A stretch of 64,000 nucleotides of DNA from Symbiodinium sp. CCMP2592 (Eukaryota; Sar; Dinophyceae; Suessiales; Symbiodiniaceae), in the NCBI GenBank assembly GCA_905221615.1, contig CAJNDT010000580.1:753511-817510 (forward strand), given 5' to 3'. The position numbers were made by a program, and so were the translations under genes. The notes below the pieces were generated by a model. The model did not search any database. It was given only the letters and a program-made list of their open reading frames with translations, and was not told where the DNA came from. Of the stretch, positions 5,752 to 63,232 are shown piece after piece. Position 1 is the stretch's first letter; every line of letters begins with the position of its first letter.

Positions 5752-5804
5752 CTTACGTTTATGCGTACCGGTATGTGTATATGTGCATAGGTGCAAAAAC
5801 ACAT

Positions 5805-6182: not shown

Positions 6183-6301
6183 GCGGGAGTTCAACATTCC
6201 ACTGGTGCCAGTAGCTTTAACAACTTACATTCAAACTTTAACACCATTGACAGTAGCAGTTTACCGAGTTCTGCTCGGTCATGACAGTAGCCGGTCCTTA
6301 C

Positions 6302-22170: not shown

Positions 22171-22172
22171 CA

Positions 22173-22253
<81 letters not shown>

Positions 22254-22254
22254 G

Positions 22255-22310
<56 letters not shown>

Positions 22311-22318
22311 GCTACTAG

Positions 22319-22374
<56 letters not shown>

Positions 22375-22550
22375 CTACTGCTACTGCTACTGCTAATGCT
22401 ACTGCTACTGCTACTGCTACTGCTACTGCTACTGCTACTGCTACTGCTACTGCTACTGCTACTGCTACTGCTACTGCTACTGCTACTGCTACTGCTACTG
22501 CTACTGCTACTGCTACTGCTACTGCTACTGCTACGACTACTGCTACTACT
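22171..22550. repeat. compound (CTA)n and (GCTACT)n microsatellite
   Basis: The trinucleotide CTA array to about 22374 has three interruptions and turns into a hexanucleotide GCTACT array to about 22532. Poly-Thr and poly-Val ORFs across it are artefacts. Confidence 0.95.
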
Positions 22551-22604
22551 ACTACGACTGCGACGACGACTCCTGCTGCTCCTCCCCCTCCTACCACCAC
22601 CACT

Positions 22605-22730
22605 GCTGCCCAGCTGACGACGACGAGATCGCTGCTACTTCTTCTTTGCAGCTGTAGATCAAGTTGCAAAACAAACAAACGTCTTCGCCGATGCCCGAGA
22701 TGGAAGAGTCCCAGGTGGACTTGAATCACA
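22605..22730 (-). CDS. candidate exon next to the microsatellite
   Basis: Minus strand reads STWDSSISGIGEDVCLFCNL and IYSCKEEVAAISSSSAGQQ, then runs into the repeat. Confidence 0.38.
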
Positions 22731-29773: not shown

Positions 29774-30009
29774 AGTGTGAATCTGCCCAGGTGCGCCGCT
29801 CAGACGCCGCTACCGGCGGCACTGGGAGTAGTTTGCTTGTACACACCACCCATCACTCCTACCGCTTTTGGGCTCAAGCCTCAGAGCAAGAGGGTGACAC
29901 ACACAAATCAAGAAGTGTACAACTGCACCTGGCAATACTTTTCTCTTGCTGTTGTGGCTGTAAAAGAGTTCGCTGCGTACTCCGTGCGAGGGCTTGTTGT
30001 TCTCACACG
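29774..30009 (+). repeat. 5' LTR of retroelement A
   Basis: Matches 40096-40332 except A/G near 29847 and a missing base in GGGCTCAAGCC. The gag-pol frame is open through the LTR, but that part is not needed for the protein. Confidence 0.9.
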
Positions 30010-30021
30010 GGTCATGAGCCC
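30009..30021 (+). promoter_or_regulatory. primer-binding site, tRNA-Met anticodon-arm type
   Basis: GGGTCATGAGCCC directly follows the 5' LTR. Its complement, GGGCTCATGACCC, looks like a Met-tRNA anticodon arm with a CAT anticodon. Drosophila copia is primed by an internal initiator-Met-tRNA fragment. The first ATG of gag-pol (30014) lies inside the site. Confidence 0.6.
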
Positions 30022-36000: not shown

Positions 36001-39000
36001 AGTTCCTCACGGTAGCTCTGAGGCAGGGCAGTTGAGATGGCTTTTCGTGCAGAAGCCGATGCTTCTGGATGCGCGTAGATGGCACTCAGCTCAGGCATTT
36101 CAGGGCAGTCCGCTGTTGCTTGTTGCCTATTCTCTTCAAGCCATAAACCGGGCAAGTGACGCAATCTGTGATGACCTTCGTAAGCTCGGCTTTCCGTTGC
36201 CCCGCCTTGATCCTGCTTCGTTGCATGTTCGCGGTCCTGAAATCCCCACTACTGATGCTGATGATGCTCATCAGGGGGGAGGGTGTGGGATTGATGCTGG
36301 AGGGAATCTTGATGCTGATTTGACGGCAGCATTGCGAGTGAGTCGCCAACCTAGCTCGAGAGCTGGCTCGTCGACCTCAGGGCTTTCAGGCTCCAAACGA
36401 GTCTCCTTCGGGGTTCCACTCGACGAAACCATAGGTTTTGCTGAGGGCAGTTGTACATCAGAGGCTTTGAAGAGTTTGGGTTCCAGACACTCTCTTCGGA
36501 TGTGCTGGTGTTGCGACAGGGCTTGTGCTGAGTGCGGTGAGTTCTTTACCACTGAGGAGAGTCCAGAAGGGATGACTGCATCAAGCTATCACGGTCATGT
36601 TGAGCTCTTGGATGGTGTGAGGGCGGTAAGTGACCTCGAGGATTGGATCGAGTGTGGCGATCTGTTTCATAGGGTCTTCAGGGTTGAGGGTAGGCTTCAT
36701 GCTGCTTCCGCCTGTTCAGCTGACGATCGCATCGTTGATTACACGTTGTGTGCGATTGAGCTTCCGTGCACGGGTTCGTTTAGCGAACTGTCTGGGTATC
36801 GTAAACAGTGGTTTGGAAAGGGAGTAGAAGAGCTTGATCAACATCAGTTGGTTTTGAAGGCGTTGATGCGTGATGAGCGGAAACTGCTAAGGCATGAGAC
36901 CGAGGATGATGCAGGAATGCGCGCGGCGCCCGCTACGGCTGCGTTGCTCACTGACATTGCATCGGAGGTTCACTGCCTGGAGCGCGAGCTTGTGTCGTTG
37001 CGGGCAGGTTGGTCGGAGCCAGAGTGCGATGCCTTGCGAGCTTGTCATGTTGGGGGTGAGCTTGAGTCGTTGAGTGCGCGTGGTGTCGAGCGTGAGCTTG
37101 AGTCGTTGAGTGCGCGTGGTGTCGAGCGTGAGCTTGTGGCATTGAGAGCTTGTCTTGCAGAGCATGAGCTTGTTGGTTGGAGAGCGTGCCCCGCGGAGCA
37201 TGAGCATGCTGTGTTGAAGGCTTGTCGTGTCGCTGCGGTCGCCGAGGCATCTGACCACCATAGGGTTTCCGATGAGGTTCCAGCTCCGTTGCAAACGCAG
37301 ACCTACAGCAACGAAGAGGTGTTTGCCGAGTGGTCGGAGCCTTGGATCGAGTGCACTCGCAAGGAGTTGTCGTCGCTGCTAGATGTTAAAGGTGCTTTGG
37401 CCAGGACTACCGAGGAAGAAATCCAACGTTGGGTTGAGGAGGGGGCAGAAATCACCCGAATCCCATCAAAGACGGTGTACACGCGGAAAGCGGTAAGTGG
37501 ACGCCGCAAATGCCGCATCGTGTTATGCGGTAACGCTTTACCCGCCAACCTTGATGAATCCTCCTTGGACCGTCGACTGGCTACTTACGCCGGGGGTGTT
37601 GACATCAGTTTGTTGAGAGTCCTCCTAGCCGAAGCTGTGGAGCACCGCTATCATCTGGCGGTTTGGGATATTTCCACGGCGTTCTTGAACGCCCCGTCCC
37701 GTCCCAGAGATCTGAAAGCAGCTCACCGGGGAAAGAAGCAAATTGTGATCGCAACACCGCCAAGACAACTGGTGCGTCGAAAGCTGATCCCCTCCCACGA
37801 ACTGTGGAGGGTATTGTTGGCCGTTTACGGGTTGGACACAAGTCCTCGTGACTGGACGCTGTTTCGCAACGAAACCTTGCGCGACTTGACGGTGCTGGTG
37901 GAAGGCGAGGTTCTTCGGTTGAAGGTATGTGCTGCTGATAGCAATATCTGGTTTGTCGTGCGGCTGGAAAGTGTTGACGCGCCCCTGAATGTCGGTGTGG
38001 TGTGTGGCTGGCTAGCCATATACGTTGACGATTTCTTAGGTGCTGCTCGGCGAGTCTATGTCGAAGCGATTTACCACAAGATCAAGGGCATTTGGGACAG
38101 TGGTGAGTTGGAGCACGTTGTGTGCCGGGGGCAAGGCGATTCAGTTCGATTCAATGGGCTCGAGCTGCAATGGGACAGCGACGGAAGCGGGTTGTACGTC
38201 CATCAGTCATCCTACATCAAAGATCTGGTTGGGCGATACCCGGAAGTCAAGTGTCAAGCTGTGCCCCTGTTGCGTCCGCTTTTGAGTGAAACGGCCGAGG
38301 ATGACATTGAGGGCCACCTCAAAGCTTGCCAAAAGGTCTGTGGCGAGCTCCTTTGGCTGGCCGTGAGAACACGACCAGACCTGGTGTTTGCATGCTCTCG
38401 CATTGCATCTGCGATGTGCAAACGTCCACAAGAGGCCTACGGGGCTGCGCTTGGTGTTGTTGGATACTTGAAGACTACACCTGTGCTTGGCTTGTTCTTT
38501 ACCACGAAGCCGAGTGCTCATTGGGGGGAGGCCCGCCGTGCCGTCCAAGCCTCTGGGCTACTTGAAGTGCATACCGATGCGGGCTTCGCGCCCGAGGGCC
38601 TCCGTAGTCAAGAGTGTGTTTGCATTTATTGGCGCGGTTGTTGCGTATGTTGGGTTTCGACAAGACAAAGCTTTCTCGCCCAGTCGACTTGTGAGGCGGA
38701 GTTGGTCTCTACCATCTCCGGCTGCAATCTCGGCGACTCCTTGGCCGTCCTCTTGAACGAGTTGTATTCCAGCCAGGGTTTTCGAAAGATTCTCCTGAAC
38801 GACAATGCTGCTGCCATCGGCATCCTAGCTGCGGACACCAACAGCTGGCGCACGCGTCACCTCAAGATCCGTGCAGGGGCATTGCGGGAGAAGGTTGCTT
38901 TGTTTGAGTGGGAGGTGCTGCACCTCGATGGTCAGCATAACACGGCTGACATCGGGACCAAGATCCTCCAACAGCCTCGAGTTGAACGCCTGCGGGACCT

Positions 39001-49553: not shown

Positions 49554-49716
49554 TATAGTTGTTGTAAACCACTGCACACACGCACTGATAATAACCCGTC
49601 CAAGTGTTAGCAAGTAGCGCACGATACCATTAGGTAGCTACACCTTTTTCCTGCTAGAGCACTTGTGCCACAATGCCGTACACACAACATGATACTTCAC
49701 ACGTGCACAAATTACA
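49554..49716 (-). repeat. 3' LTR of retroelement B
   Basis: 163 bp, identical by eye to 62975-63137. On the minus strand it runs from TGTAATTTG to AACTATA. Confidence 0.9.
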
Positions 49717-49727
49717 CCCCCCTCGCC
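49717..49727 (-). promoter_or_regulatory. polypurine tract of retroelement B
   Basis: Minus strand GGCGAGGGGG directly before the 3' LTR. Confidence 0.6.
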
Positions 49728-50142
49728 GAAGCGTCAGTCTGAGGCGCAAACATGCACGGAAGCTTGGTGCTGTGTGGCCTGCCGTAAAGGCGGCTGGATT
49801 GTGGCTCGGGGCTCATAGGCTTTCTACTACCGTAAAGCGGAAGATACGGAAGCAGATTAATTCTTTTAGCGCGCAGTTTAAAGTCGCGACATGCATTATA
49901 AAGTGGCGACGATCCAGCAAGCCTTGAATGTTGGCGTGGATACGAGTCGCAAGAACATGTGCAGCGTAGGACGAATACATCATCCACTGGAGCTGCTGGC
50001 TGTTCGGATTTGTCACAAAGTGACTGCCAGGAAATGAAGCATGAAATTTTTCTGGTCTTAAGGAAATTCGGCCACCTCTAAGAGGGGCTGTATTTCGGAG
50101 TACCGGTTAACGTGACGGAACCACGAAATGTCGATCAGGTAC

Positions 50143-50868
50143 TTAGTACCATCCTCCGGAACCCGAGGAGCGTCCATAGGGGTGGGATCCTCGCTGGTAG
50201 CCGCGATCCCATCCCTGCTCCTGGTAGCGCTGTTGCTCTGCTCTGCGTGCATCAGCTTTGGCTTGAGCAATGCGAGAGCGTTCAGCGTTGCGTTGGCGCT
50301 CTTCGTATGCACGGCGTGCAATTCCGACCTGTACCGCGAATTTCCCACGGAGCCACTCAGTCCAGTCCTCAGCAGAATAGCCGAGTCGTGGATCAACGTA
50401 GAGTGCCTCTTCTGAGAAAGTAACAATCATTTTCACGATTTTGTGCTGGAGGAAAACATCTACGAATTTACGCAAACTGTATGCCCCTCCCAGCCACATG
50501 ATGCAAAACGGATCGTCACTCACTGCGGAGATCAGGCCTGCCCTAAGGGCGGCTGGATTGCACTCGTGCAAATAGAGCAACCGAGCAATCTCCTGGTTCC
50601 TCGGCCCTTCGGAGCTTCCACCGTAGGTGCCGACAGCTAACTGTCGTTGCTCCTTCGAACGGCCATGGTTCGGCAGTGCAGCATGCGTAAGCACGTCTTC
50701 GATGGCCAGAAACTCTCGATCGTACCCATTGCCGATGGAACTCATAGTGTAGTCCACATCATTGTCGAAGCGGTGTACGATGCTTGTGTAGCCTCCTTTT
50801 GTCGCCATCTTTAACTGCTGCCGGGCCTTGTCCAACGCCTCTGCGTCAAGCGACGTAGTTCCACGCTG
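50143..50868 (-). CDS. last ORF of retroelement B, function unknown
   Basis: At least 230 codons; the frame is open upstream to about 50890, overlapping the end of the zinc-ribbon ORF in the -1 frame. Contains YTSIVHRFDNDVDYTMSSIG, a helical middle, a coiled-coil (RRAYEERQRNAERSRIAQAK) and an Arg/Gly/Tyr-rich end like an RNA-binding tail. Contains one stem-loop copy (50535). May be expressed by frameshifting or splicing. Confidence 0.55.
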   Translation of the reverse strand, partial: QRGTTSLDAEALDKARQQLKMATKGGYTSIVHRFDNDVDYTMSSIGNGYDREFLAIEDVLTHAALPNHGRSKEQRQLAVGTYGGSSEGPRNQEIARLLYLHECNPAALRAGLISAVSDDPFCIMWLGGAYSLRKFVDVFLQHKIVKMIVTFSEEALYVDPRLGYSAEDWTEWLRGKFAVQVGIARRAYEERQRNAERSRIAQAKADARRAEQQRYQEQGWDRGYQRGSHPYGRSSGSGGWY

Positions 50869-50882
50869 CGTTGAGGAGTCTC

Positions 50883-51317
50883 TCAGTCTCTGGTCATTTC
50901 ATGGATGACCTCCTCCGGCGTCAGCTGGGAACGTGGCTTGCCCGCGGTGGCTGCGGCGGCCTCTTCAGCGAACCATCGGGCCGTACGCACTTTCTTGCGT
51001 GCGTTTTGCTGGGAAGGCTTCACTATGTGAACGCCACAGCTCAGGCAGATCATCTGTCCCACAAGATGCTGCGCACCGCAGTGGGGACATGCCCTGTGGC
51101 GGCCACCCGTAACGGGGGCTGGAGGGAGAGCCAACGGAGTCGATTCCGGCTGAGGCGGTGCCTGCTCGAACATCGGCTCTACTTTGACTTCTTCCTCCTT
51201 TTTCACATCGCCTTCCTCTGGCTCGATCTCAATGTCGATCTCGACTGGTTCCTCCGGCTCAAGGAAACGCACTCGCTTTCTGGACTCAGTCGGTGCCTCC
51301 GGTGGTGAAGCGCCCCC
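50883..51317 (-). CDS. zinc-ribbon extension behind the pol stop codon
   Basis: In the same frame as pol and separated from it only by TAG at 51318-51320. Acidic stretch (EIDIEIEPEEGDVKKEEEVK), then a four-Cys zinc ribbon CPHCGAQHLVGQMICLSCG, then a basic segment. No good ATG near the start, so it is probably made by readthrough or was joined before a point mutation. Confidence 0.6.
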   Translation of the reverse strand, partial: GGASPPEAPTESRKRVRFLEPEEPVEIDIEIEPEEGDVKKEEEVKVEPMFEQAPPQPESTPLALPPAPVTGGRHRACPHCGAQHLVGQMICLSCGVHIVKPSQQNARKKVRTARWFAEEAAAATAGKPRSQLTPEEVIHEMTRD

Positions 51318-54300
51318 CTAGTCCAATGTTGTGGTTTCCTCCGGAAGGAAGTCGGATGCTGTAGCGTCGTTGAGTGCAAGAGGTGCTGGTGATGATGCTG
51401 GTGGCGCAACCTCAACCTCAACTTCGACTTCAACCATAGGCTCGTCTGCGGGAGCAGACGCTGCTGCTTCAACTTCTTCATGGCCACCACTAAGTGGGGC
51501 TGAAGGTTCCTCCGGAACATCGGGGAACTGCTCCGGCTCAGCTGCTCCAGGATCGACGATGGGATCCTGGGCAGTCTCCGGGATGATTGTATCCTCCTCT
51601 TCGCTGGATTGACGAGACCACAGGACGATGCCTTTGATCGTGTCGCGGATGTAGAGCACACAAGTCCCTGGCACCGGATCGCGAGTGAGTATACCTTCGG
51701 AAGTTGTCTCGAAGAGGTACGCATAGCGGTTGACCTCCTGAGTGTCGAGTACAATTTCATAAGGAAGGTTCGCTCGGCTGCCAGCTTTATTCTCAAGCTC
51801 GCTCAGGGTGGCTTTCGCGAAGTAGTTGTGAAACTTGCCGCTCCTGTTGAACCCTGGCGTGAAGCCAGTAGAGAGAATATTGAATGCTGCATCATGCGTC
51901 GTCCTGTGGTAGAGACGCGGGGGAAACTCCCCAAGAGCAAGGAATGGCCTGCCTTGATAGGCGGCTGTAGGACCAAGCTCCTCTCGCGTATCGTTCGTGA
52001 ACCAATGCAGCGCAATAGAGGAATCGGTCACTTGGTCCTTGATGCGTTCGCTGTGACCATGCGAAGCACAAATCCAAGAGGGCCAAATGTCCGTCTCAAT
52101 GAAGTCAGCACGCGGATCGGTGGGGAGGCCTGCCAAGTTAAACCTCGATTTGTTATCGTAGGCGACTATGGACAAGATACCTCGTGTTCCCAGATCCACA
52201 CGGTGCTTCTTCCACATATGCTGAATGAGTTCTTGGATGCGAATCCATTTCCCGCGCCGTGAGCTGAGCTTCACGTTCGATCCTCGGACAGCACCTGTGA
52301 GGTAGCGCTCAACGTAAGGTTTGAGGCCCAACTCAGGGAGGTGGTCCTTCGGGATCGAATCGGGGAGGATCTGAACGATCTCGCTCCCCTCCGGATCCTC
52401 TGGGCACACATCCTCGTCGACGAAGCCACACATTTCCATCAGGTCCAAGTCGTCTTGGTACTTTACCCCAATGTAGTCGTGTGGGCGAGCCCTTAATAGG
52501 CCGCTGGAAGGGTCCCGGTCCTTCTTGGTCATGCCCTCTTTTGCCGCTGACAGAGTACGGTGAGACTCCGTGCGGTAAGGGATGGCCTCGATGACATCGT
52601 CAAAGGACACCTCCGGTACGTCGCGAGATGATGCACTGCCAGATGGGCCACCACTAAGTGGGGCTGGATCCTTCCGCTCAGCACGGGCACGTGCTTCCGC
52701 CTGCTCTTTCGCGCGCTTTTGCGCCTGTTCGCGAGCTGTGGCCCATTCCCAATTCAGGACATCCTGAGGGACCTCACGCATTCCAGTGACCGGAAGATCA
52801 GGTGGAGGAACATAAGGGGATTCCCATGGATCAGGGCATTCGTTCGCAGCTTCGCGAATCTCGGCCTGCCTTAAAAGGCGGCGGGAGAGCTGGGACCGAT
52901 ACAGTGCCTTATCGAAGACATACTGCATGGAATACACCCGCGTTCCTTCTGGATCAATAGGAAAACGGCGGGCCAGCTCGTCCAGCGTCTCTGCGGGCAT
53001 CTTCGCGAATAAGTGGTCAGCTTGACACACTTTAATCCGCTGTCCGATCACAGAGGCCAAGGCTGCGCGATGTGTTGAGTCTTCGCGGAAGTGGTAGTGG
53101 TCGTGCTTCGGGATCTGGCATACGCTTTCTTTGAGAGAGGCGGTGTATAACCCCCTACTCCTTGCGTATCCGAGGAATTTTCGGATAGCTGTGCGGTACT
53201 CTGCTGGCAGCCCGTAGTCCAGTGGGTCGGCATCCGAGAGGATTTGCACTGAGCCCACCGTTGGCCTGCCCTGAAGGGCGGCTAGACGGCCAATCTCACC
53301 GCACACACGTGCGGCAATGTCCGCCCAGATCCCTTCTGCGGCAACGCCTTCAGGACCAATCTGCCAGTGTGGCGTCCCTGGGTCGACGAAAACTCCTCTG
53401 CGACCGCACAGTTCGTTGCCCATCCAAACAACAACGATATCGACCTCGAGATGCAAGGGGTTTAACGATTCGTTGATGATCTGCGGCAAGAGCGTGTGAA
53501 CTGCCTCAACGATCGAGTGGAGGTTGCCTCCCCAAATCGCCTTTTGCCGGACATTCGTGTATTGCTGAAGGATATGACCAGGCCCCGTCAGAGCTTTAAA
53601 GTCGTCCGCCATCTCAACGAATGTTCTCGCCCCAGCCTTGAAAATGAGGGTAGAGTCGGAAACAATGATGCAGGCTTTTTCACGGCCTCGGCTATCGCCG
53701 GGCTGGAAACGCGACAACCCCTCGTCGTTGATCCGTGCCACCTTAGGGAGGGCCTTATAGCCATGATCAACATCTCCCAGACACGTAGACAGAGCGGTTT
53801 GCGCGATTGCGCCTGTGTAGAGCTGTTTCACGCTCTCTTCCCAGTCACGGTCTGGGTTGAGTCCGAGCTCGTGTCCGAAGACACCGGCCCACATATGGTA
53901 GTGAGCCCACTCCCGCTTGATTGAGTCACCCGATGCGGCAATCGTCGCTGGCGCCGACGGCTTGTTCTCGCCTTCTGCTCGCACTCGGGGATCACTGATC
54001 ATCTCTGGCGTGCTCTGATGAGCCGCTGCACAGGGGCAGGCAAGCACCTTCCTAAAGTTCGCAAGATTAGCAAGATGTGAAGATGTGATATCCTCTAAAT
54101 CATCATGATCTGCGACTTCGTGCTTGTAAGATGCCTTAGCGATCGGATGCTGGTTTCCTGAGCGGAAGCTTTCCTTAGCACGGTTCGCAAGTGGCAATGC
54201 CTGGAGCCCTGCGCACACCAGATATGCGTTTTCAAGTCGTGCAATTTCGGCATTAATTCCGTCGAACATGAATTCGTCGACGGGCCCACACAAGAGAACA

Positions 54301-57300
54301 CAGAAGTTACTGGAAAACAAGTGAGCCATTTCAACAATCTCAACAATGCTCCTTTGTAACCTCCTCAAGTCACCCTTTGAGAGCGATGTCATGACCACCG
54401 TGACAAACGAAAGTGAAGTGATAATGAATGCTCCCCCCTCATCGCGAACAGAAGTGATGAGGCGGGTCAAAGGTAACCATTGTGATGGAGTTTCATGGCG
54501 AACCGCAATCCACCACCGTTGAAGACTCAGTCCCCCCTGATCGGTGCATGCAATTGGCCTCGGCAAAAGCCGGGCTGGAGCAGCGACCGCAGCTGGTTGG
54601 GGCAGCCTGAACTTCAATATCTCCAATTGTTCTCTTACTTCGTTGTTAATACTACCTACCTGGGAAGAAGTGAAAGCGATCAATCCAAAGCGGGTGCCCT
54701 TCCAGGGCATCACGCAGTGGTGTAGGTCGGGGGCAAAGTACAATGGAGAGTGCTTTGTGTTGTGAGTTCCACCAGTAACAACGCTTCCATTGTCCTTAGT
54801 CTGGGTGGCCGGACCTTGTCCCGGCATCCCTTCAACCCACAACAGACCTCCAGAAAAATCCCCGAAACTAATCGCGAAGTTCTCACTTCCCTTAAGGTTC
54901 CGTGAATCCGCATGCAACAAGGATTTGGCGTCACGATTCACTGCGATCGAAGTCCATGTGAAGTCGCGACGTGCATGTTTGCTGATCCACTCGTTCATGT
55001 ATCTACACGCTAAAGGGTACCGTTTAGTAATGTTGGTAATCCCTTGCATGGCACTGAACGAAAAGAAACCCCAATTGTGATAGTACGAATTGTCGTTCGT
55101 GGTAAGGCGAGACCTGCGTCTCTTGCTCACCTTCACTGGAAATTGTGATGCAACTGATTGCAAACCCTCAAAACTGAAATCCTTAGCCTGAAGTAGAACC
55201 TCAGCAGTGGCTTCGAGCTCTGGCCGGCCATGGCTGGCGGCTGCAATCTGAGGTTTCGCAACCAAATGACTGTCTGAGTCCTTGCCACCTTTGTTGGCAA
55301 CAGTAGGGCACAGATTGTGGTTGATCAACCTGAGAGCGTGAAGCCACTTAGTCTTCTCGGCGACAGGTTTTGTAAAGATATCGGCAACCTGTTCGAGCGT
55401 ATCAACATTGACCATATCGAAATGTTCCACCTCGAACTGCTGCTTCAACCATCCAAAACTGATGTTCTGAGTGCGATCAGTGTGTCGCATCTTTTCACTG
55501 TCACCTTTGTGAACGATCGTGATCGTCGCTTGGTTGTCCTCAAGGAACTGAACGCGAAACTTATCGCTCAAGCCCACATTCAAACCCTGAAGATTGGCTA
55601 CCGATCGTCCACCTGGGATTCCCCCGTACCTGATCTCGTCAAGTTCGGGGTCAACTCTTGCTAGAACACCATCGATCTTGATGGGTGGAGGTCTCTTTGG
55701 CCTAACCTGATGGTTGGCTGAATTGATCTCAACCTGTTGCCATAGGAAAATCCAAAGGCTGAGGCTGGGCAATCCCTGAGCGCGAACACCATGGTTAGCA
55801 CTGATGACCTCGCTTTCGGTGCTTGACATCGTGATACTGGTCTGCTTCTTGGAAAAGGCATTCAATGGGTAGTAGGTGTTTGGCCCCACGAGATACAGTG
55901 CACAGCCTGAGGTTGATTTGCGGTCATGTTCCCCAGACCAATCTGCATCGCAGAACAGCCAAAGCTTACACTCACTGATGCGATCCCCGATAAATCCCTG
56001 CATCCGAACATCAAGTGAAGAGTTGATGTAGCAGACAAGCCTGTGAAGTGCTGCATCGCAGTCCCTGCTCCACTTCGTCACCCTACTGGCGAGGCTTTGA
56101 GTAGCCCGCAGGAGATCCCATCGTGCCATCCTAGCGGCAAACAGGATTTTCATGAGAACCTTGCTAGCAATTGGTTGGAGGCGACCAGATGGCTCTTCCC
56201 CCTCAGTAGGCTTAGCGATTCTGTTCTCTGAAAACGGAGTTGGAACATTAGTGAGGGACTGCTTCGAAACCTTAGCAAGATCACAGTACCTGTCCACACA
56301 AGAAATCAGGAAGTCTTTCATGTCATATGTCATGACGTTCACGAGCTTATCCATAGAAGGAATAGCGTCTTTGCAAATCGTGTCTGTTCCCTTGAACTTC
56401 TGTTCCTTGGCTTCCCTTTTGGCCTCGGCCTTAGATCTAGACGGCTTGCCTTTGGAGGCAGCTAGAGCGTGTCTGATCTTTTCGGCATCGTGACCTGGTA
56501 ACGGGAACAAGGATCGGCCGGTCCACCACTCCTCGCGCTTAAGGTTGGGGTCAAGATTGACATCGTGTTCCTCAATCGGACCTTCATCGAAAGCGGTTAC
56601 CCTGGTTGTTGACAAGTTTGGGAAAACCTCAATGTCCCTGTTGGTGGGAACATACAACCTCTTCCTAGGATACACGTGATGACGAACAACTGCACCTAGC
56701 TCGGTATCGACTTCCCAGAAGTCTTCTCGAACTTGTGGCCTCGGGTCACCCCGGGCTGGAGCAGCCGTCTTTTTGTCGAACACGTATGCAAACGGATGTG
56801 CTGACCTGGGAAGTTGTACCTGGGTTTTCTCAAAATGATTACAACCAAAGTACCTGCCAAAAGGCTCAGGAGGATCCATGTCAATGACACTCTCAACTGT
56901 CGCCCATCCCTTAGCGAGATTCTTAGTTGGCCCAGCCATCTTGAAATCATCGACGTAGATGACCAAAAGAAGATCAAGTTCAGCGTGATAGAAAATGGAC
57001 TGCCAGATCTCGGGCAATACCGGGGTCCACCCTACGGTCTTCAGCTGGTCTTCACAGTGTTTTTCCCAGATTCCGCCGGAATCCGGGTGTCCGTAGAGGG
57101 CTAACATTAAGGGCACGACTGGGTCGGAAAACCCTCGCCATTCCTTAGGCCACCGGTTGCGCGGGAGTCTGACCCAAGTTTCTACCCCTTTAAATAATGC
57201 TTGCGTGTAAGCCTGCTTCGCGTCAGCTTGTTGCTTCGAGTACCCTGGCTGGCTACCGAAGACGTCGATGACTTTAGCGGCCTCCATTGAAGCGGGGCTG

Positions 57301-59657
57301 GATCCGAGCTCAGAGAAGATCGCACGATCGTTATGTTCATCTGAAACCCGATTCCCCTGGAACACGCTACCTCCCTTCCACTTCCTGTCAGGGTGTCCTT
57401 CTGGAAGTTCGTCGCCCTTGATGCTGCAGATTTCGAAGATTCTTCCGAAGTGCGTTTTGATGCCTTTCCTGATTGCTTCAGCGGAAACATCACGAAACTC
57501 ACGAACCTTCGAATGCAACCAACAAGACTTATCGACTAGCTTCTGCCACTCTTTGTCCATAGCTGCCTTGGCTGCTGGGGTGCGATCAATCTCGGCTTGG
57601 TTGACGACCCTGGCTACCAACGCATACTCAAGAGCAGACAGTTCCCCTAACTTTTCCCAGTAGAGGGTTGCCATCCTGACACGATGAGGCTCATTTTCAC
57701 ATGTCATTACGGGCATAGCTGGAGAAGCATCCCTTTCGACCTCTGCTCGGGCGGCTTCCTCGCGACGGCATTTAGACTGATACCTTTCGATGTCAGCCTC
57801 GCGCTGATTGCGGGACATCATGTGCCATTCCTCGCTAGAGGTGTCTGGGGGTCGCTTCGAGCCCTTCTTGTTTCGAACAAGTCTGATCCCATCCCAGTTG
57901 TATCCTTCAGGCACAGGTTTGCCGTCGGGCATGGTGTAGGGATCATGTCTCTTTGGGGGCGGTTTCGGTTTGGAGCTATCTGACGGTTTGTCAGTCGATG
58001 ATCCACGGCCATCCCCTTCCGGGGGGCTAGAACCACTACCTGACTTGCCATCAGCCTCAGGGAGTTTGTCCTCATCGGGAACAGAGATGGGTTCGGAAGC
58101 TCTCTGCCTAAGCTTATCAAGCTCTCCCTCCACGTCTCTGCCCTCTGGGTTCCAAGGGTCAAGTTCTTTAGGACCAAAGATGTCGTCGATACCACCTGAA
58201 GGAGGAAGTGTTGTCTCCTTAGCTGGGAAAACACAGTCTTGATCCTGAAGCTTGGGTGGATCACCCCCCTGATCCTCGGAAACCGCGAGAGGAAAAACCA
58301 TATCCCCTATCGGAAGTTCCATGCGCTTGACCCGAATGATTCTCAGGTCGTCATTGTCAATTGCATCTTGGCTACCCTTTAAGGGAGCTACGAGGTATTC
58401 CTGTCTCCAAATGAAGCCAGGTTGAATGTGGTACCCTAAGAAGATACCGTCTTCGGCCTTTGGGTCGAACTTAGATGCATTTGTAATGTTCTCTTTGGGA
58501 TTGTTCCAATAGAGAACCTTGGCACCAAAAGGAATGAGCTTACCGCTAAACCCTTCACCGAACCTTTCGTCCCATGGGATCTTCGCGGTGTCCATCCTTT
58601 TGGACAAGTTTAGAGCCATAGTGTGATGTTGAGCAGCTAAGGGCCAGAGCTTCGTTGGAAGTCCTGCCTGCAGCAAGTTCGCCCGTGTGCCCTCGAGCAC
58701 AGTTCGGATCTCTCTCTCAACAACAGACTTGCTCTCATCGACGTAAGGTCGTGAGGTGTTGTGACGAACTTTGTATTTTCCAGTAGCATTCTTGAGTTCG
58801 GGGGCGTTGTCAGAGTAAATGATACCTGGTTCATCATCTACGGTGAAGTAGTGCAACAGGCAATCATAAACCTCTTCCGACTCCTTCGTACCTGCAGGGT
58901 ACACATAACGAAAGTTAGTGAACACGTCCTTAACCACAAGAGCAACTTTCTCACCTTCGATCCCAAAATCACGCAAGTCCTTGGTCACAATGTGATCAAT
59001 TGTCACGTGGTCTCCGAACTTCTTCGAAAAGATAGTGGAGCTCCCCCCTCGCTTTCTGGCATGTGGCGCTAGCATTTTGGCCTTTTGGCATACCTTGCAG
59101 AAAGGGTTCTTAGGACGGTGGGTGAATTTGTGCTCCGGGCTATTGGCCTGCAGCTTGAGCTGGGCTGAACGTTTTTCGTCCTTTGGGTCAGCTTCAGCTT
59201 CTCTTTCGCTGTCAGGCTCCGGCTCGGGGTCATCAACAGGTCTTTTAAAGATCGTTACACTGAGAATGCAGGCATCAGAAGGGAGCTTGGCTACCCGATT
59301 GTCCAACGTCCTTACATCCACGTCTTTTTCGATCTCCTGCCATTTCTTGACATAAGTCCAAGTACTCCGGATGACGTGCTTTGGAAACCTTGTAGCAGGC
59401 GTTCTAAAGGTTTTGGGAAAGTGCCCCACGATCATCTGTGGAAAGGAAGGATGCGAAACCCAACCTGGTTTGTTCAAGTACTCCGCCTTTATGCCTAACG
59501 GAGCAGCCTCTTTCAGTGCTTTTTCGATCCTGGGGTCGAGGCCATTGCCCGAGGATTCGCCTTCCGGCTCGGATTCTGCTGCATTGGCGTGCCTTAGTAG
59601 GCCGCTGAACGGGGAAAACCCGATGTTGCCTGGATGACTGGCGAATGAGCCGCCTTC
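51318..59657 (-). CDS. pol polyprotein of retroelement B: IN-RT-RNase H plus dioxygenase-, SGNH- and Tpt1-like domains
   Basis: Open from 59657; the first listed start (59477) is a TTG, so entry is probably by -1 frameshift. Residues counted from 59477. Integrase: HKFTH...FCKVC zinc site, Asp161, Asp223, Glu254. RT: Asp752, YVDD (Asp843, Asp844). RNase H: Asp1177/Asp1179, ending near 1389. Dioxygenase-like: HAD (His1522, Asp1524), GGLLWVEG, His1586 or 1587, Arg1596, the 2OG-Fe(II) pattern. SGNH-like: VSDST (Ser1942), WMGNE (Asn2021), DHYH (Asp2126, His2129). Tpt1/KptA-like: WIRIQELIQ, ASHGHS (His2475), LYHRT (His2524). Core RT, IN and RNase H motifs are intact. Accessory identities rest on motifs and spacing: fairly sure for the dioxygenase and Tpt1, less so for SGNH. 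Confidence 0.88.
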   Translation of the reverse strand, partial: EGGSFASHPGNIGFSPFSGLLRHANAAESEPEGESSGNGLDPRIEKALKEAAPLGIKAEYLNKPGWVSHPSFPQMIVGHFPKTFRTPATRFPKHVIRSTWTYVKKWQEIEKDVDVRTLDNRVAKLPSDACILSVTIFKRPVDDPEPEPDSEREAEADPKDEKRSAQLKLQANSPEHKFTHRPKNPFCKVCQKAKMLAPHARKRGGSSTIFSKKFGDHVTIDHIVTKDLRDFGIEGEKVALVVKDVFTNFRYVYPAGTKESEEVYDCLLHYFTVDDEPGIIYSDNAPELKNATGKYKVRHNTSRPYVDESKSVVEREIRTVLEGTRANLLQAGLPTKLWPLAAQHHTMALNLSKRMDTAKIPWDERFGEGFSGKLIPFGAKVLYWNNPKENITNASKFDPKAEDGIFLGYHIQPGFIWRQEYLVAPLKGSQDAIDNDDLRIIRVKRMELPIGDMVFPLAVSEDQGGDPPKLQDQDCVFPAKETTLPPSGGIDDIFGPKELDPWNPEGRDVEGELDKLRQRASEPISVPDEDKLPEADGKSGSGSSPPEGDGRGSSTDKPSDSSKPKPPPKRHDPYTMPDGKPVPEGYNWDGIRLVRNKKGSKRPPDTSSEEWHMMSRNQREADIERYQSKCRREEAARAEVERDASPAMPVMTCENEPHRVRMATLYWEKLGELSALEYALVARVVNQAEIDRTPAAKAAMDKEWQKLVDKSCWLHSKVREFRDVSAEAIRKGIKTHFGRIFEICSIKGDELPEGHPDRKWKGGSVFQGNRVSDEHNDRAIFSELGSSPASMEAAKVIDVFGSQPGYSKQQADAKQAYTQALFKGVETWVRLPRNRWPKEWRGFSDPVVPLMLALYGHPDSGGIWEKHCEDQLKTVGWTPVLPEIWQSIFYHAELDLLLVIYVDDFKMAGPTKNLAKGWATVESVIDMDPPEPFGRYFGCNHFEKTQVQLPRSAHPFAYVFDKKTAAPARGDPRPQVREDFWEVDTELGAVVRHHVYPRKRLYVPTNRDIEVFPNLSTTRVTAFDEGPIEEHDVNLDPNLKREEWWTGRSLFPLPGHDAEKIRHALAASKGKPSRSKAEAKREAKEQKFKGTDTICKDAIPSMDKLVNVMTYDMKDFLISCVDRYCDLAKVSKQSLTNVPTPFSENRIAKPTEGEEPSGRLQPIASKVLMKILFAARMARWDLLRATQSLASRVTKWSRDCDAALHRLVCYINSSLDVRMQGFIGDRISECKLWLFCDADWSGEHDRKSTSGCALYLVGPNTYYPLNAFSKKQTSITMSSTESEVISANHGVRAQGLPSLSLWIFLWQQVEINSANHQVRPKRPPPIKIDGVLARVDPELDEIRYGGIPGGRSVANLQGLNVGLSDKFRVQFLEDNQATITIVHKGDSEKMRHTDRTQNISFGWLKQQFEVEHFDMVNVDTLEQVADIFTKPVAEKTKWLHALRLINHNLCPTVANKGGKDSDSHLVAKPQIAAASHGRPELEATAEVLLQAKDFSFEGLQSVASQFPVKVSKRRRSRLTTNDNSYYHNWGFFSFSAMQGITNITKRYPLACRYMNEWISKHARRDFTWTSIAVNRDAKSLLHADSRNLKGSENFAISFGDFSGGLLWVEGMPGQGPATQTKDNGSVVTGGTHNTKHSPLYFAPDLHHCVMPWKGTRFGLIAFTSSQVGSINNEVREQLEILKFRLPQPAAVAAPARLLPRPIACTDQGGLSLQRWWIAVRHETPSQWLPLTRLITSVRDEGGAFIITSLSFVTVVMTSLSKGDLRRLQRSIVEIVEMAHLFSSNFCVLLCGPVDEFMFDGINAEIARLENAYLVCAGLQALPLANRAKESFRSGNQHPIAKASYKHEVADHDDLEDITSSHLANLANFRKVLACPCAAAHQSTPEMISDPRVRAEGENKPSAPATIAASGDSIKREWAHYHMWAGVFGHELGLNPDRDWEESVKQLYTGAIAQTALSTCLGDVDHGYKALPKVARINDEGLSRFQPGDSRGREKACIIVSDSTLIFKAGARTFVEMADDFKALTGPGHILQQYTNVRQKAIWGGNLHSIVEAVHTLLPQIINESLNPLHLEVDIVVVWMGNELCGRRGVFVDPGTPHWQIGPEGVAAEGIWADIAARVCGEIGRLAALQGRPTVGSVQILSDADPLDYGLPAEYRTAIRKFLGYARSRGLYTASLKESVCQIPKHDHYHFREDSTHRAALASVIGQRIKVCQADHLFAKMPAETLDELARRFPIDPEGTRVYSMQYVFDKALYRSQLSRRLLRQAEIREAANECPDPWESPYVPPPDLPVTGMREVPQDVLNWEWATAREQAQKRAKEQAEARARAERKDPAPLSGGPSGSASSRDVPEVSFDDVIEAIPYRTESHRTLSAAKEGMTKKDRDPSSGLLRARPHDYIGVKYQDDLDLMEMCGFVDEDVCPEDPEGSEIVQILPDSIPKDHLPELGLKPYVERYLTGAVRGSNVKLSSRRGKWIRIQELIQHMWKKHRVDLGTRGILSIVAYDNKSRFNLAGLPTDPRADFIETDIWPSWICASHGHSERIKDQVTDSSIALHWFTNDTREELGPTAAYQGRPFLALGEFPPRLYHRTTHDAAFNILSTGFTPGFNRSGKFHNYFAKATLSELENKAGSRANLPYEIVLDTQEVNRYAYLFETTSEGILTRDPVPGTCVLYIRDTIKGIVLWSRQSSEEEDTIIPETAQDPIVDPGAAEPEQFPDVPEEPSAPLSGGHEEVEAAASAPADEPMVEVEVEVEVAPPASSPAPLALNDATASDFLPEETTTLD
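59586..59621 (-). promoter_or_regulatory. -1 ribosomal frameshift signal (protease to pol)
   Basis: Heptamer G_GGT_TTT (59621-59615) is in phase with the protease frame. A 9-nt spacer follows, then stem GCG-GCCT / AGGC-A-CGC with loop ACTA (59605-59587). Slipping gives GGG TTT TCC CCG, in the pol frame. The protease stop TAA (59594-59596) lies within the stem-loop. Confidence 0.65.
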
Positions 59658-60304
59658 TCATCCTTGGCGGGAACAGCGATTGTACCATCCCCAATTACCG
59701 GGACTCGCCCGCGCAGCTTGCAGTAAAGTTTCCGGCCTTCGGGTGTCACGAAGTAAGGCGTCTTCCCTGCGTACCAGTGGAAATCAAAACCCTCATCCAT
59801 ACATCTCCTACCAACAGAGCACACCGGCGGCGTTGAATCTAGCACGTAGCATTCGAGGATTTTGTTGATTTCAGGGACCTCAAGCTTAACGCCTTCATTA
59901 CCTTTTACCGGCCCATTGGCGGTGATCAGAGAGACAGGACGTGAGGCGGGTTCTATGGGTACGTCAGGGAAGTGAGTTCTGCAGTCCGACTTGCTGATGA
60001 GGTCCTCTTCACTTCCGGTATCCGCTAGGAATTCTAAGCCGGGGACCAGACCTGCACATGACGGACGTGCAAGTCGCTCGCACTCCTCGCAGAGGAAGCC
60101 TTCCTCCATGCATTCATACCCGCATCCCGCAGGCGTGTCGTGAACCATGCATTCGATCATGGTGGCAAACTGCTTTGCCCACACAAGAGCCCTCTTCAGA
60201 TCCTTAGGATTCGAGCGTGGGCATTTCTCGACAGTGGGATAGACTTCGTCATAAACCCTGGGAAGGTAGGCACTTTCTCTGCTTTCCTTCCGGTTCGATG
60301 GCAA
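59594..60304 (-). CDS. protease ORF of retroelement B
   Basis: About 236 codons, open from just after a TGA at 60305-60307, beginning with TTG. Carries the retroviral-type aspartic protease motif LEFLADTGSEEDLIS (Asp95). It is +1 relative to Gag, overlapping its last 56 nt, and pol is -1 relative to it. A Cys-rich segment (CGYECMEEGFLCEECERLA) precedes the active site. Must be made by frameshifting or splicing. Confidence 0.8.
   Translation of the reverse strand: MPSNRKESRESAYLPRVYDEVYPTVEKCPRSNPKDLKRALVWAKQFATMIECMVHDTPAGCGYECMEEGFLCEECERLARPSCAGLVPGLEFLADTGSEEDLISKSDCRTHFPDVPIEPASRPVSLITANGPVKGNEGVKLEVPEINKILECYVLDSTPPVCSVGRRCMDEGFDFHWYAGKTPYFVTPEGRKLYCKLRGRVPVIGDGTIAVPAKDEKAAHSPVIQATSGFPRSAAY
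60249..60304 (-). promoter_or_regulatory. Gag/protease overlap needing a +1 shift
   Basis: The shift must occur within these 56 nt, because the protease frame is closed above 60304. Candidate: GGT TTA TGA at the Gag stop, where a +1 slip gives TAT GAC GAA, the protease frame. Ty1 also uses a +1 shift. Site not proven. Confidence 0.4.
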
Positions 60305-62909
60305 TCATTTCTACTGTGCTGTCGAAACTCACCTTAGGGAGTTCTTGCATGTAGAAGATCGTCTTTCCTACCCATGTGCTGCCGGGTCCTTTGGTTGGGG
60401 TCTTCCTCCAGTTGTAGATCTTGTTTCCAACAAAAGGGGAGACCGGCAAAACGTGCTCGAGCTTAGCTTGGCTCCTAAGCTTCTTGGGGTTCACAGGACA
60501 TGAATTGTCAGGAACATACCAATCCGTTCGGTACTTCTTGTGATGGCGGATGATTTTGTTGCCGGTGAAGTCTACCTCCCAGTAGTCCTCGTCATGTGAC
60601 GCTGCCATAGCGAGCTTTGGCGAGATCTCAAGATCCGCTGTATTCTCGCACGCGATGGCGCATGCGGCCGTCTTTGGAGCCTTGTCACTTGACTTAGCCC
60701 TGGGGCTTCTCCCTCTGCGCGGAGCAGGGGAGTTGGCCCTGGGTGACCCTGGCTTTGGAGCTGCCGGGGCGGCTTCGGACTTGGGTGCGGGAGCTGACGG
60801 CTTCTCTATGTCCTTATGTTGGAACCGACATTTATCACCCTTGTTGCAGTTGCCTTCTTTCCAGAACTTGCATGTCACGTTGATTTTTTTCTTTTGTTTG
60901 TCGCCTTTGGGGGACAATGATCTCTTTTTGTGAAGGAAAGGACAGTTATTGCCTCGCTTGCAAGTTCCTTTGAGGAAATCGTAGCATACTCCCTTTGGGC
61001 TAGGTGTCCTAGGCTTGCTGGGAGACTGGGATCTACCTTTGCTGGGTGATCTTGGCCTTGGGCTCTGCGATCTGCCACGGCCTCCTCTTGAAGAGGGGCT
61101 GGAAGTTCGGCCAGGAGACTTTGAGGCAGGGGCACCGTACTTATCTCCGTGAGATCTTGCAATGCGGTCACGGTTCTTGCGTTTGCGCTCTCGGGTCAAA
61201 AGATCCTTAAGTGACTTCACAAGAAACCTGTACGTGTGCTGATCCGTGCCCTCTGATGCCCTGTCGTAAATCTCAAGATCGTACTTTAGCCTCTTGGACT
61301 GCCTGAGTTCACGAAGGAAAATGTCTCTTAGGGTCGTTTCGTCCGGTGTGTGGCTAAGTCCAGACATGACAGATTCCCAGTTGCTAATGAACACTGAAAG
61401 GTCGTCATTGATTAACCTTACTTTCAGCAGGTCCTCCACGGAGTACAGTGAGCCAACCTCCTCGTTCGTCTTGAAGTACTGATCGAAGAGGTAGAGCACC
61501 TGTCGTCCTCGTACCGCCCTGAATTTCGCCGCTTCTGTCTCCTTAAAAATGAGGATTTCTCGGGAGAGTTCTCCCCTAGCGACTTTGGTGAGTGCAGCAA
61601 GAAGTTTCGTGTCAAGGGTGAGGAATTTCTCAGGGTCTCGAAGGGATTCCTGCGATGCGTCTTTGTCGTAGGCCTTCATCACCCATTTAAACGCCTCATC
61701 AGGAGAATCTGATGCTGCCCTGACCGCTTCCCTAGCTGCCGTTTTCCATGAACGATACGACTCTGGACTTGGGAAATCCGGAAGGTTGATGGACTCTGCT
61801 TCTTTCGCTTTGGGTTTGTCAGCATCGACTTTGCTCTCACCCCTTAAGGTTTTTATGCTTTGAAGAATTGCCATTTGGGTCTCTAGGAGACCTGTGTTGA
61901 AAGCGTCCGTCCCTGGCGTGCCGGAATCGGCCGCTGGAGGGGCCGCTGTTCCTGGCGCTGCCTGGGAAGGTCCTGCCTTGGGGATTGAAGATGCTGTTGC
62001 AGACGGAATGGACTGAGCATTCAAACCTCCTGGATTCATTGACTCGAACAGACATCTAGCACCCTGGGGGATTATGTTCGGCATTGAGAACATGGGCGCT
62101 TGAGGAGCTTTGGGGACAACAGAGGGACCTGCAGGGGTGCTTGGAGCAGGCACTGGCTGACTCTTTGGAGTAGCTGGGTTGTACTGATCCAAGACCTTCT
62201 CTAGTGCAGTTTCCGCAGAATCCAACCTGTCCTGAAGCTCTTCGTTCTGTTCCCTACATACAGCAAGGGACGCCTCATACTCTTCTTTCTGCCTGTTCCT
62301 AAACAACTCAAAGTGTGCTTGGAACTGTTCAACCATGACTTCCTGGGAATTCTCGACGTGCCGTCTCGCCTGTTCTTCGAGGTTCTGTGCAAAGCGTGAT
62401 TCCGCCAGATGTTGATCCAATGCGTCTGTGATTCGGCTTTGTTGAAGTTCCGCTAGCTCTTGACGCAACCTTTGATCTTCGTCATAGGAATGCGCCTGAC
62501 TTAAAGTCATTTCCGACAACAGGAGCCTTTCGCGATTTGCCGCCTTGAACTCGCTTTGTGCCAAGGCTGCTTGCAATTCTGCCACCACTTCAAGGTGGTT
62601 TCGTTCTGCTCTGTGCTCCAAGTCAGCTGTGTGAATTGCGGATGCTTCTTGATAGGTCAGCATGTGTTGCCTGTGTCTAGCTTCTGCCTGAGCCTCTAGT
62701 TCTCCGACTTCCAGTCTGATCTGGTTAACGTGTACTTCGACACTATACTGTGGTGCGAAGACGTTGAATTGTTGGACTGAGGCTGGTGCCGGGAAAACTA
62801 AGCCGGGGGCGCCGCTCCCTGTATGGCCACCCGTGACCGGGGGCTGTAAAGGGTTCACGGTGCTTGTAACTGTATCCATACTTGCAGGAATAAGTTCCGG
62901 TTCGCTCAT
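60249..62909 (-). CDS. Gag-like protein of retroelement B
   Basis: 886 codons from ATG 62909, just inside the 5' LTR. Residues 55-260 form a long coiled-coil (LEVGELEAQAEARHRQHMLT...). A helical capsid-like domain follows at about 370-580. Then come an Arg/Ser/Pro-rich segment and two CCCH zinc fingers (C642-H660, C680-H698) instead of CCHC knuckles. Near the end, EDYWEVDFTGNKIIRHH...WYVP resembles EDFWEVDTELGAVVRHH...LYVP in pol (about 56650-56735). The in-frame stop is TGA at 60249-60251; the protease frame overlaps. Confidence 0.85.
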   Translation of the reverse strand: MSEPELIPASMDTVTSTVNPLQPPVTGGHTGSGAPGLVFPAPASVQQFNVFAPQYSVEVHVNQIRLEVGELEAQAEARHRQHMLTYQEASAIHTADLEHRAERNHLEVVAELQAALAQSEFKAANRERLLLSEMTLSQAHSYDEDQRLRQELAELQQSRITDALDQHLAESRFAQNLEEQARRHVENSQEVMVEQFQAHFELFRNRQKEEYEASLAVCREQNEELQDRLDSAETALEKVLDQYNPATPKSQPVPAPSTPAGPSVVPKAPQAPMFSMPNIIPQGARCLFESMNPGGLNAQSIPSATASSIPKAGPSQAAPGTAAPPAADSGTPGTDAFNTGLLETQMAILQSIKTLRGESKVDADKPKAKEAESINLPDFPSPESYRSWKTAAREAVRAASDSPDEAFKWVMKAYDKDASQESLRDPEKFLTLDTKLLAALTKVARGELSREILIFKETEAAKFRAVRGRQVLYLFDQYFKTNEEVGSLYSVEDLLKVRLINDDLSVFISNWESVMSGLSHTPDETTLRDIFLRELRQSKRLKYDLEIYDRASEGTDQHTYRFLVKSLKDLLTRERKRKNRDRIARSHGDKYGAPASKSPGRTSSPSSRGGRGRSQSPRPRSPSKGRSQSPSKPRTPSPKGVCYDFLKGTCKRGNNCPFLHKKRSLSPKGDKQKKKINVTCKFWKEGNCNKGDKCRFQHKDIEKPSAPAPKSEAAPAAPKPGSPRANSPAPRRGRSPRAKSSDKAPKTAACAIACENTADLEISPKLAMAASHDEDYWEVDFTGNKIIRHHKKYRTDWYVPDNSCPVNPKKLRSQAKLEHVLPVSPFVGNKIYNWRKTPTKGPGSTWVGKTIFYMQELPKVSFDSTVEMIAIEPEGKQRKCLPSQGL

Positions 62910-62963
62910 GCGCTGATTGATTGTATTGTAACCAACCAGTTGTGACCAGGCCGTAGGCTATAC

Positions 62964-62974
62964 GGCTGATAACC
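62964..62974 (-). promoter_or_regulatory. primer-binding site of retroelement B
   Basis: Minus strand GGTTATCAGCC directly after the 5' LTR. It is one mismatch from GGTTATGAGCC, the complement of a yeast-type initiator-Met anticodon arm, and resembles element A's site at the same position. Confidence 0.55.
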
Positions 62975-63137
62975 TATAGTTGTTGTAAACCACTGCACAC
63001 ACGCACTGATAATAACCCGTCCAAGTGTTAGCAAGTAGCGCACGATACCATTAGGTAGCTACACCTTTTTCCTGCTAGAGCACTTGTGCCACAATGCCGT
63101 ACACACAACATGATACTTCACACGTGCACAAATTACA
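62975..63137 (-). repeat. 5' LTR of retroelement B
   Basis: 163 bp, identical to the 3' copy, followed by the CTGAA duplication. Confidence 0.9.
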
Positions 63138-63232
63138 CTGAACCCTAAACTGACTCTGAACCCCAAGCCGTCTGACCCTCAAGACTGAAAACACCACACC
63201 CCGAGCCCCCCCACCCACGGTAAACCCCCACC

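Follow-up and report, generated by a model that had tools for sequence, protein, structure and literature searches.

Why would a retrotransposon carry about 25 copies of one small hairpin along its whole length, in coding and non-coding parts alike? The question is raised by a 64-kb stretch of the genome of Symbiodinium sp. CCMP2592 (contig CAJNDT010000580.1, positions 753,511 to 817,510; hereafter the window, whose own coordinates are used), which contains a copia-like long terminal repeat (LTR) retrotransposon, referred to as family 1. A first-pass annotation had reported 18 copies in this element, with shared flanks and differing but complementary stems. The array is real; the count was low (22 units under a strict rule, about 25 hairpins in all). 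The element is confirmed, with its orientation corrected: its sense strand is the minus strand, and the plus strand that had been scanned is antisense. The array is almost certainly a selected nucleic-acid structure, and two other retrotransposon families of this genome (families 2 and 3) have it as well.

In the sense RNA, the unit is a 7-bp stem (GC-x-N4 / N4'-x'-GC) with a one-base bulge on the 3' side and a loop of 3-5 bases, followed by C. In family 1 it reads U-N-C-A-GC-x-N4-loop-N4'-bulge-x'-GC-C. The units found by mechanical scan span 49776 to 62848, all on the plus strand, which is the antisense strand of the element; some two dozen weak partial matches, located off the element or on the opposite strand, have lower scores. 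A covariance model was built from 20 copies, as had been suggested, and gave 25 matches in the window at E<=10. Twenty-four of them lie inside the element on one strand (20 are the model's own training rows; those at 57279, 52484, 59145 and 58007 are new); the sole match off the element is at 39888 (E=5.4). The pair counts of the model's alignment are partly circular, its rows having been chosen for complementarity, and were not relied upon. The 22 units given by the strict rule on the family-1 sense strand all have the final C and include two doubtful ones (62155 and 58370); the total of about 25 is obtained when looser model matches are added and the doubtful two are dropped. On the antisense strand, the strict rule gives 2 units, none with the final C. 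When the bulge is placed as in family 3, 1 sense and 1 antisense unit are found. The hairpins of the window copy are given below with the methods that detected them (residues are those of pol; column, alignment column shared with another family).

62825..62848, minus strand, hairpin in gag (scan, covariance model, strict rule)
62155..62178, minus strand, doubtful hairpin (strict rule, no model match)
61915..61938, minus strand, hairpin in gag, outer pair GCG/CGC (flank test, covariance model, strict rule)
61079..61103, minus strand, hairpin in gag (scan, covariance model, strict rule)
60619..60642, minus strand, hairpin in gag, outer GCG/CGC (flank test, covariance model, strict rule)
59586..59609, minus strand, hairpin at the protease/pol junction, outer GCG/CGC (flank test, covariance model, strict rule)
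59145..59169, minus strand, hairpin in pol, residue ~105, 2-nt bulge, column common with family 2 (scan, covariance model)
58370..58392, minus strand, doubtful hairpin (strict rule, no model match)
58007..58031, minus strand, hairpin in pol, residue ~484, loop GGAA, 2-nt bulge, family-2 column match only unmasked (scan, covariance model)
57279..57302, minus strand, degenerate hairpin under the conserved SSPASMEA motif (covariance model)
56737..56760, minus strand, hairpin in pol, residue ~908, family-2 hairpin one residue off (covariance model, strict rule)
56443..56466, minus strand, hairpin in pol, outer GCT/AGC, residue ~1006, column of family 2 (1027) and family 3 (875) (strict rule, not model)
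55699..55722, minus strand, hairpin in pol, residue ~1254, column common with families 2 and 3 (covariance model, strict rule)
55222..55245, minus strand, hairpin in pol (covariance model, strict rule)
54556..54579, minus strand, hairpin in pol, residue ~1635, column common with family 2 (covariance model, strict rule)
54007..54030, minus strand, hairpin in pol, outer GCG/CGC (flank test, covariance model, strict rule)
53684..53707, minus strand, hairpin in pol, residue ~1925, column common with families 2 and 3 (covariance model, strict rule)
53263..53286, minus strand, hairpin in pol, residue ~2066, column common with family 3 (covariance model, strict rule)
52863..52886, minus strand, hairpin in pol (covariance model, strict rule)
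52646..52668, minus strand, hairpin in pol (covariance model, strict rule)
52484..52508, minus strand, weaker hairpin in pol, outer GCG/CGC, inner pairs 3/4 (flank test, covariance model)
51946..51969, minus strand, hairpin in pol, residue ~2505, column common with family 2 (covariance model, strict rule)
51482..51504, minus strand, hairpin in pol (covariance model, strict rule)
51101..51123, minus strand, hairpin past the pol stop of the window copy (covariance model, strict rule)
50535..50557, minus strand, hairpin in the C-terminal open reading frame (covariance model, strict rule)
50070..50092, minus strand, hairpin in the 3' part, outside the window copy's listed open reading frames (covariance model, strict rule)
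49776..49798, minus strand, hairpin by the 3' LTR, outside the listed open reading frames, inner pairs 3/4 (scan, covariance model)

The placement described earlier (gag, protease, pol and non-coding parts, differing frames) holds: all three reading-frame phases are used, plus non-coding 3' sequence. The hairpin at 57279-57302, which had been counted among the 18, keeps its flanks and has a partly unpaired inner stem, as if constraint on the protein (SSPASMEA) prevented a full hairpin. Nineteen units were folded in a 60-nt context; their mean pair probability is 0.85 and 16 of them reach at least 0.8. The mean spacing is about 607 nt in family 1 and 528 nt in family 2, more even than random in both (coefficient of variation 0.55, P=0.003, and 0.53, P=0.001, respectively).

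When only the flanks GCC..GGCC are required and the inside is left free, all four inner positions are complementary at 15 of 23 places in the element sense strand, the expectation for four random pairs being about 0.4% (own estimate). The same flanks give 0/1 in the element antisense strand and 0/8 in window positions 1-29000 (both strands). A copia-like element of the same window, element A (29777-40036; open reading frame (ORF) of 3419 aa, one CCCH finger), gives 0/6 in sense and 0/2 in antisense. With flanks GCG..CGCC, 4/5 places are complementary in the element sense strand, 0/3 in antisense and 1/6 in the sense strand of element A. Dinucleotide shuffles, one of the checks proposed at the outset, yield 0.05 units versus 15 observed, and codon shuffles 0.3 versus 11. 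In a class scan without any sequence condition, the top class reaches 11 versus 0.3 in family-1 pol and 8 versus 0.3 in family-3 pol; the best class of element A reaches 4 versus 0.7 and its sequences are unrelated. Element A, also proposed as a control, has no array: the structural scan gives 0 on both strands, and the strict rule a single unit at each bulge position, both with a bulged C. A looser scan gives 1 unit per strand in positions 1-29000, and nothing comparable to the array was found elsewhere in the 64-kb window.

The three families share 60-68% identity in the block from reverse transcriptase (RT) to RNase H; in the pol alignment of families 1 and 2, 1261/2618 residues are identical. 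Each copy has 11-22 strict units, spread over gag, pol and 3' sequence, and the families can be told apart by a dialect of their own, in loop, flank or bulge position. GNRA, UNAC and GCRA are taken here as names of loop classes. Family 1 (n=22): flank T in 20, C in 19 and A in 21; loop (x)xYA in 14/22; bulged A or U in 20/22. Family 2 (loci L034 and L035): 22 strict units in the copy; G after GCC in 22/22; bulged A in 19/22; loop GNRA in 11 and UNAC in 4 of the 22. Family 3 (L069 and L070): 11 units inside the element; loop GCRA in 10/11; bulge one pair lower. Family 3 was initially a candidate for lacking the array, being empty at the family-1 bulge position; this was rejected, as 11 units appear once the bulge is shifted by one pair. 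Family 2 and the two family-3 pieces have zero antisense units at their own bulge positions. The family-1 covariance model matches families 2 and 2b (a sub-family of family 2) at 14 places, all in sense, 4 of them below E=0.01. In family-3 gag, two hairpins with identical stem, loop and bulge lie 66 nt apart (L070, 5083 and 5149) and possibly result from a local duplication. In two proteins of other contigs (P0012 and P0015), the peptide AALAGRP, which a family-1-like hairpin would encode, is repeated and dispersed, partly at family-1 hairpin columns; these repeats would predict arrays in further families.

Part of the positions is conserved between families. The comparison includes 15 family-1 and 20 family-2 pol hairpins; for 7/15 of the former, a family-2 hairpin is found no more than 1.4 residues away (mean of 0.23 at random, with a maximum of 3 in 20,000). 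Since the aligner might favour similar hairpin-encoded peptides, the alignment was repeated with all hairpin residues masked: 6/15 still coincide (random mean 0.21, maximum 3 in 5,000), five in exact register and one off by one residue. At five of these six sites, the stems differ yet stay complementary. Over the seven coinciding sites, 10/28 inner pairs differ on both sides and 0 on one side (9/24 on both sides in the masked six), the lack of one-sided changes being partly built in, as both members were picked for complementary stems. Three sites have a hairpin in all three families in the wider, unmasked alignment (1006/1027/875, 1254/1275/1120 and 1925/1959/1677, in the order of the families).

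The motif is under selection that is independent of protein coding. Families 2 and 2b are 82.6% identical over 7.5 kb and were compared at the 17 hairpins found in either one. At all sites, 9/342 positions differ inside hairpins versus 1144/6587 outside. At third codon positions, the difference is 3/112 versus 803/2197 (p=1.8e-17); at first positions, 3/114 versus 221/2194 (p=0.005). A narrower set of 10 hairpins gives 5/221 versus 1148/6708. Among the nine inside changes, four form two compensatory double changes, two convert a GNRA loop into another GNRA loop and two fall together in a 5-base loop (GGAGA to GTAAA). One further compensatory double change is shared by two copies of family 3b. 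In diverged family-2 copies, counted without the hairpin through which each copy had been retrieved, the differences are 3/123 versus 275/2875 (L046, p=0.004), 1/123 versus 237/2878 (L059, p=0.0009) and 2/123 versus 166/2880 (L050, p=0.045), these copies not being independent, as all five diverged copies compared carry the change at 11445. Between the window copy and another family-1 copy (C180), 4/415 positions differ inside and 292/12827 outside (counts only). The RNA-structural unit proposed by the first-pass annotation is supported by the flank-only complementarity, the third-position constraint, the columns shared under masking and the compensatory changes.

The distribution of the units was analysed by pattern scans of the 1.098-Gb genome, each pattern covering one loop type. 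The family-1 pattern (UUA loop) occurs at 608 places versus 34 for its control, and the family-2 pattern at 173 versus 4 for the reversed control. Among the 100 family-1-pattern places listed, judged by eye from stem and clustering, 94 have family-1 stems, mostly clustered, and 6 have unpaired stems. Among the family-2-pattern loci fetched, 27/30 are family 2 and the remaining three have unpaired stems; in the list for this pattern, stems are unpaired at 11 places and one place has a single mismatch, as judged by eye. Sub-family 2b (L068) was reached through one of these listed places. One of the three places of a further pattern, which does not match the usual unit length, is a family-1 copy at 96% (L002). 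As the places of both patterns mostly carry stems of their own family, the units accompany the elements within the listed places; dispersal in unrelated genes was not found among these places. Family-1-pattern clusters with another spacing or with variants (bulge A for T, stem end TGGC) are present at C79:217135-218790 and C192:189384-192199 and perhaps represent a sub-family.

Two explanations can be weighed on these data. An origin of the array as a side effect of protein sequence or base composition has next to no probability: one site common to the three families does encode a KGRP/KGKP motif that is also present in relatives, but all phases are used and the constraint is strongest at third codon positions, and the artefact was rejected on this constraint together with the shuffles and the class scan. 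The small mobile unit suggested by the first-pass annotation, comparable to Rickettsia palindromic elements, would account for many fixed-flank copies at scattered sites in differing frames, and for the absence of about half of the family-1 pol sites at family-2 columns. It is nevertheless highly improbable. A consistent gap of 7-8 residues, as expected of an insertion, was not found at hairpin sites in protein relatives (up to 14 relatives listed per site); gaps of other lengths are present at 483, 906, 1411, 2270, 2324 and 2658, in poorly conserved parts. Thirty family-1 loci (window copy included; 0-13% diverged) showed no clean presence or absence at five sites, and the differing rows show point changes or a one-base insertion, or come from copies that are truncated or unaligned. 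The columns shared by deep families, the strong synonymous constraint and the listed genome-wide places that follow the elements are also at variance with mobility. Because columns are shared and no consistent gap is found, the units appear to have been retained, gained and lost where they stand, and not to have been inserted. Rickettsia palindromic elements are palindromic units that insert inside protein genes; the likeness is limited to the presence of palindromic units in protein genes, the hairpins appearing to be maintained in place and tied to particular retrotransposons.

The proposed role is the following. The hairpins would act in the sense strand, in the genomic RNA of the element, and be kept in place by selection. 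Each would be a putative binding site for an element-encoded protein, with Gag, which has CCCH fingers, as the leading candidate. With some twenty sites, at an average distance of 500-600 nt in families 1 and 2, the protein could select its own RNA among others and, once bound, fold it into a virus-like particle, a role like that of dispersed packaging signals in some single-stranded RNA viruses. Synonymous constraint and covariation call for a reader of the folded strand; sense RNA is the probable working form, since the loop classes can be made out in that strand; the coexistence of three dialects in one genome suggests that the elements encode their own readers; and the even spacing in families 1 and 2 would suit a protein coating or folding the RNA over its full length. 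From sequence evidence, the chances that the hairpins are Gag-bound packaging sites and identity tags are judged to be even. It is plausible, at somewhat less than even chances, that they form a hairpin code, i.e. family-specific tags in 11-22 strict copies along the RNA, read by the family's own protein and keeping co-resident RNAs apart. If true, this code would allow retrotransposon RNA to be recognised as self or non-self.

Other readers, or another working form, have to be considered. An element-encoded reader could act at another step: RT or the C-terminal part of Pol could use the hairpins in template choice, cis-preference or as strand-transfer points during complementary DNA (cDNA) synthesis. 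The same constraint, dialect and strand data fit this possibility, as does the extra C-terminal sequence of Pol with its Tpt1/KptA domain, but nothing ties the sites to RT and the even spacing in families 1 and 2 suits coating or packaging at least equally; it is unlikely, though by no means negligible. A host RNA-binding protein acting in export, stability, translation control or silencing is a rather unlikely reader. Cellular proteins commonly bind small hairpins that have a bulge and a GNRA loop; however, a single host reader should favour one dialect where three coexist, and element A resides in the same genome without an array. The hairpins could also work in single-stranded cDNA and be read by integrase or during strand transfer. 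The antisense strand folds nearly equally well, and the A.C of the family-1 sense strand corresponds to a G.T pair in it; against this, the GNRA, UNAC and GCRA loop classes of families 2 and 3 lie in the sense strand and the changes in 4-base loops between families 2 and 2b remain GNRA. This form is improbable.

Several observations weigh against packaging sites read by Gag in sense RNA, or against the regularity on which this reading relies. Element A has a CCCH finger too, yet no array; Tpt1/KptA is present in all three families and singles out no reader; known packaging signals of LTR elements are mostly found in the 5' region of the RNA. Two of the 19 folded sense units are near 0, and the antisense strand has a mean pair probability of 0.80, i.e. 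almost equal stability. The loops of 8/22 family-1 units are not (x)xYA, and spacing in family 3 is not more even than random (P=0.33). Noise classes in the class scan reach 4 versus 0.2, and site 484 drops out under masking. Between families 2 and 2b, one inside change breaks a pair and second codon positions do not differ significantly (3/116 versus 120/2196, p=0.28); neither do the diverged family-2 copies L064 (p=0.52) and L054 (p=0.72), nor family 3b (p=0.24 and 0.77), which offers too few sites. A scan of the family-3b copy L072 failed to recover its changed hairpin and yielded 1 antisense unit. Locus L068, GC-rich and partly outside the element, has 7 units at the family-3 bulge position, 2 of them with the final C. 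The shared change at 11445 and the choice of complementary members, both given above, also count here.

The nearest described system is, by analogy, the dispersed packaging signal of single-stranded RNA viruses. The model of dispersed packaging signals is debated, and the viral motifs are degenerate. Like MS2-type signals, the arrays consist of many small stem-loops that share a motif along a genomic RNA. PMC6281560 gives the MS2 packaging motif as an (x)xYA loop with an A in a 5' bulge; the (x)xYA loops and the bulged A or U that predominate in family 1 (14/22 and 20/22) are similar. The arrays differ from MS2-type signals in belonging to LTR retrotransposons, in the bulge on the 3' side, in the three dialects in one genome and in a reader that is putative only; their motif is, in our judgement, the stricter one. 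Ty1 packaging depends on a cis-acting RNA structure read by Gag, and the packaging signals of retroviruses and Ty1 are mainly one structured leader region. Unlike these psi or leader signals, 11-22 strict units per copy are distributed across gag, pol and 3' sequence. A cis-acting RNA structure read by Gag is also what PMC8096270 and PMC3362945 describe for retroviral packaging. The short stem with a bulge or specific loop is a likeness to iron-responsive elements and the histone stem-loop, from which the arrays differ by their 11-22 strict units per copy and by family dialects. Those elements bind one protein and are present in one or few copies per mRNA, in untranslated regions. A limited literature search, restricted to titles and abstract openings on dinoflagellate or Symbiodinium retrotransposons and packaging signals, returned no description of such an array.

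To our knowledge, little is understood of how LTR retrotransposons that reside together choose their own RNA. Here, a strict, covarying and synonymously constrained motif is present in dozens, in three dialects within one genome; the specificity between protein and RNA would therefore be readable from sequence and could be tested by swapping. The hairpins would also offer an inexpensive means of marking element families in the large genomes of dinoflagellates.

The other features of the family-1 element in the window are given below.

62975..63138, minus strand, 5' LTR (164-nt direct repeat, 100%)
62949..62970, minus strand, leader hairpin without bulge, adjoining the 5' LTR and overlapping the primer-binding-site-like GGTTATCAGCCGTA
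60249..62909, minus strand, gag ORF, 886 aa, two CCCH zinc fingers
59594..60304, minus strand, protease-like ORF (weak gag-asp_proteas match below cut-off, 0.029)
51318..59477, minus strand, pol ORF, 2719 aa, copia-like (SH3_retrovirus 0.0036 and RVT_2 0.1, both below cut-off)
50143..50835, minus strand, C-terminal ORF of the element, without Pfam match
49554..49717, minus strand, 3' LTR (164-nt direct repeat, 100%)

Compared with Ty1/copia elements, the window copy has identical LTRs and a CCCH gag; its protease, SH3_retrovirus and RVT_2 matches are all three below cut-off, and the Pfam search gave zero model matches to the integrase core in this copy. RVT_2 is above cut-off in family-3 pol, and PF07727 is present in many protein relatives. 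The protein relatives number 77, and the five that are named are from Symbiodinium. The primer-binding-site-like GGTTATCAGCCGTA (62961-62974) is common to all three families, at or shortly past the end of the 5' LTR (L034, about 1859, family 2; L070, about 4326, family 3). It is complementary to an anticodon-arm-like sequence with loop CTGATAA, presumably that of tRNA-Ile GAU, and this match suggests copia-style priming by a tRNA half. DNA relatives outside this genome were not confirmed in viral_contigs or genome_contigs. Genome-wide, the RT part has at least 131 scored matches, at least 93 at 96-100% identity (window copy counted) and at least 38 at 69%; the third family occupies 50 places at 94-100% identity. 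A Tpt1/KptA domain (RNA 2'-phosphotransferase) lies close to the C-terminus of family-1 pol, in a long C-terminal extension, and is above the Pfam cut-off in all three families (51318-59477; L035; L069). It is in our judgement an unusual cargo for an LTR element; as a feature linked to the hairpins it was rejected, since all three hairpin families have it and it does not discriminate. Elsewhere in the window, long ORFs at 5168-6214 and 22040-22729 consist largely of simple repeats (VC/HT and AV/TT types).

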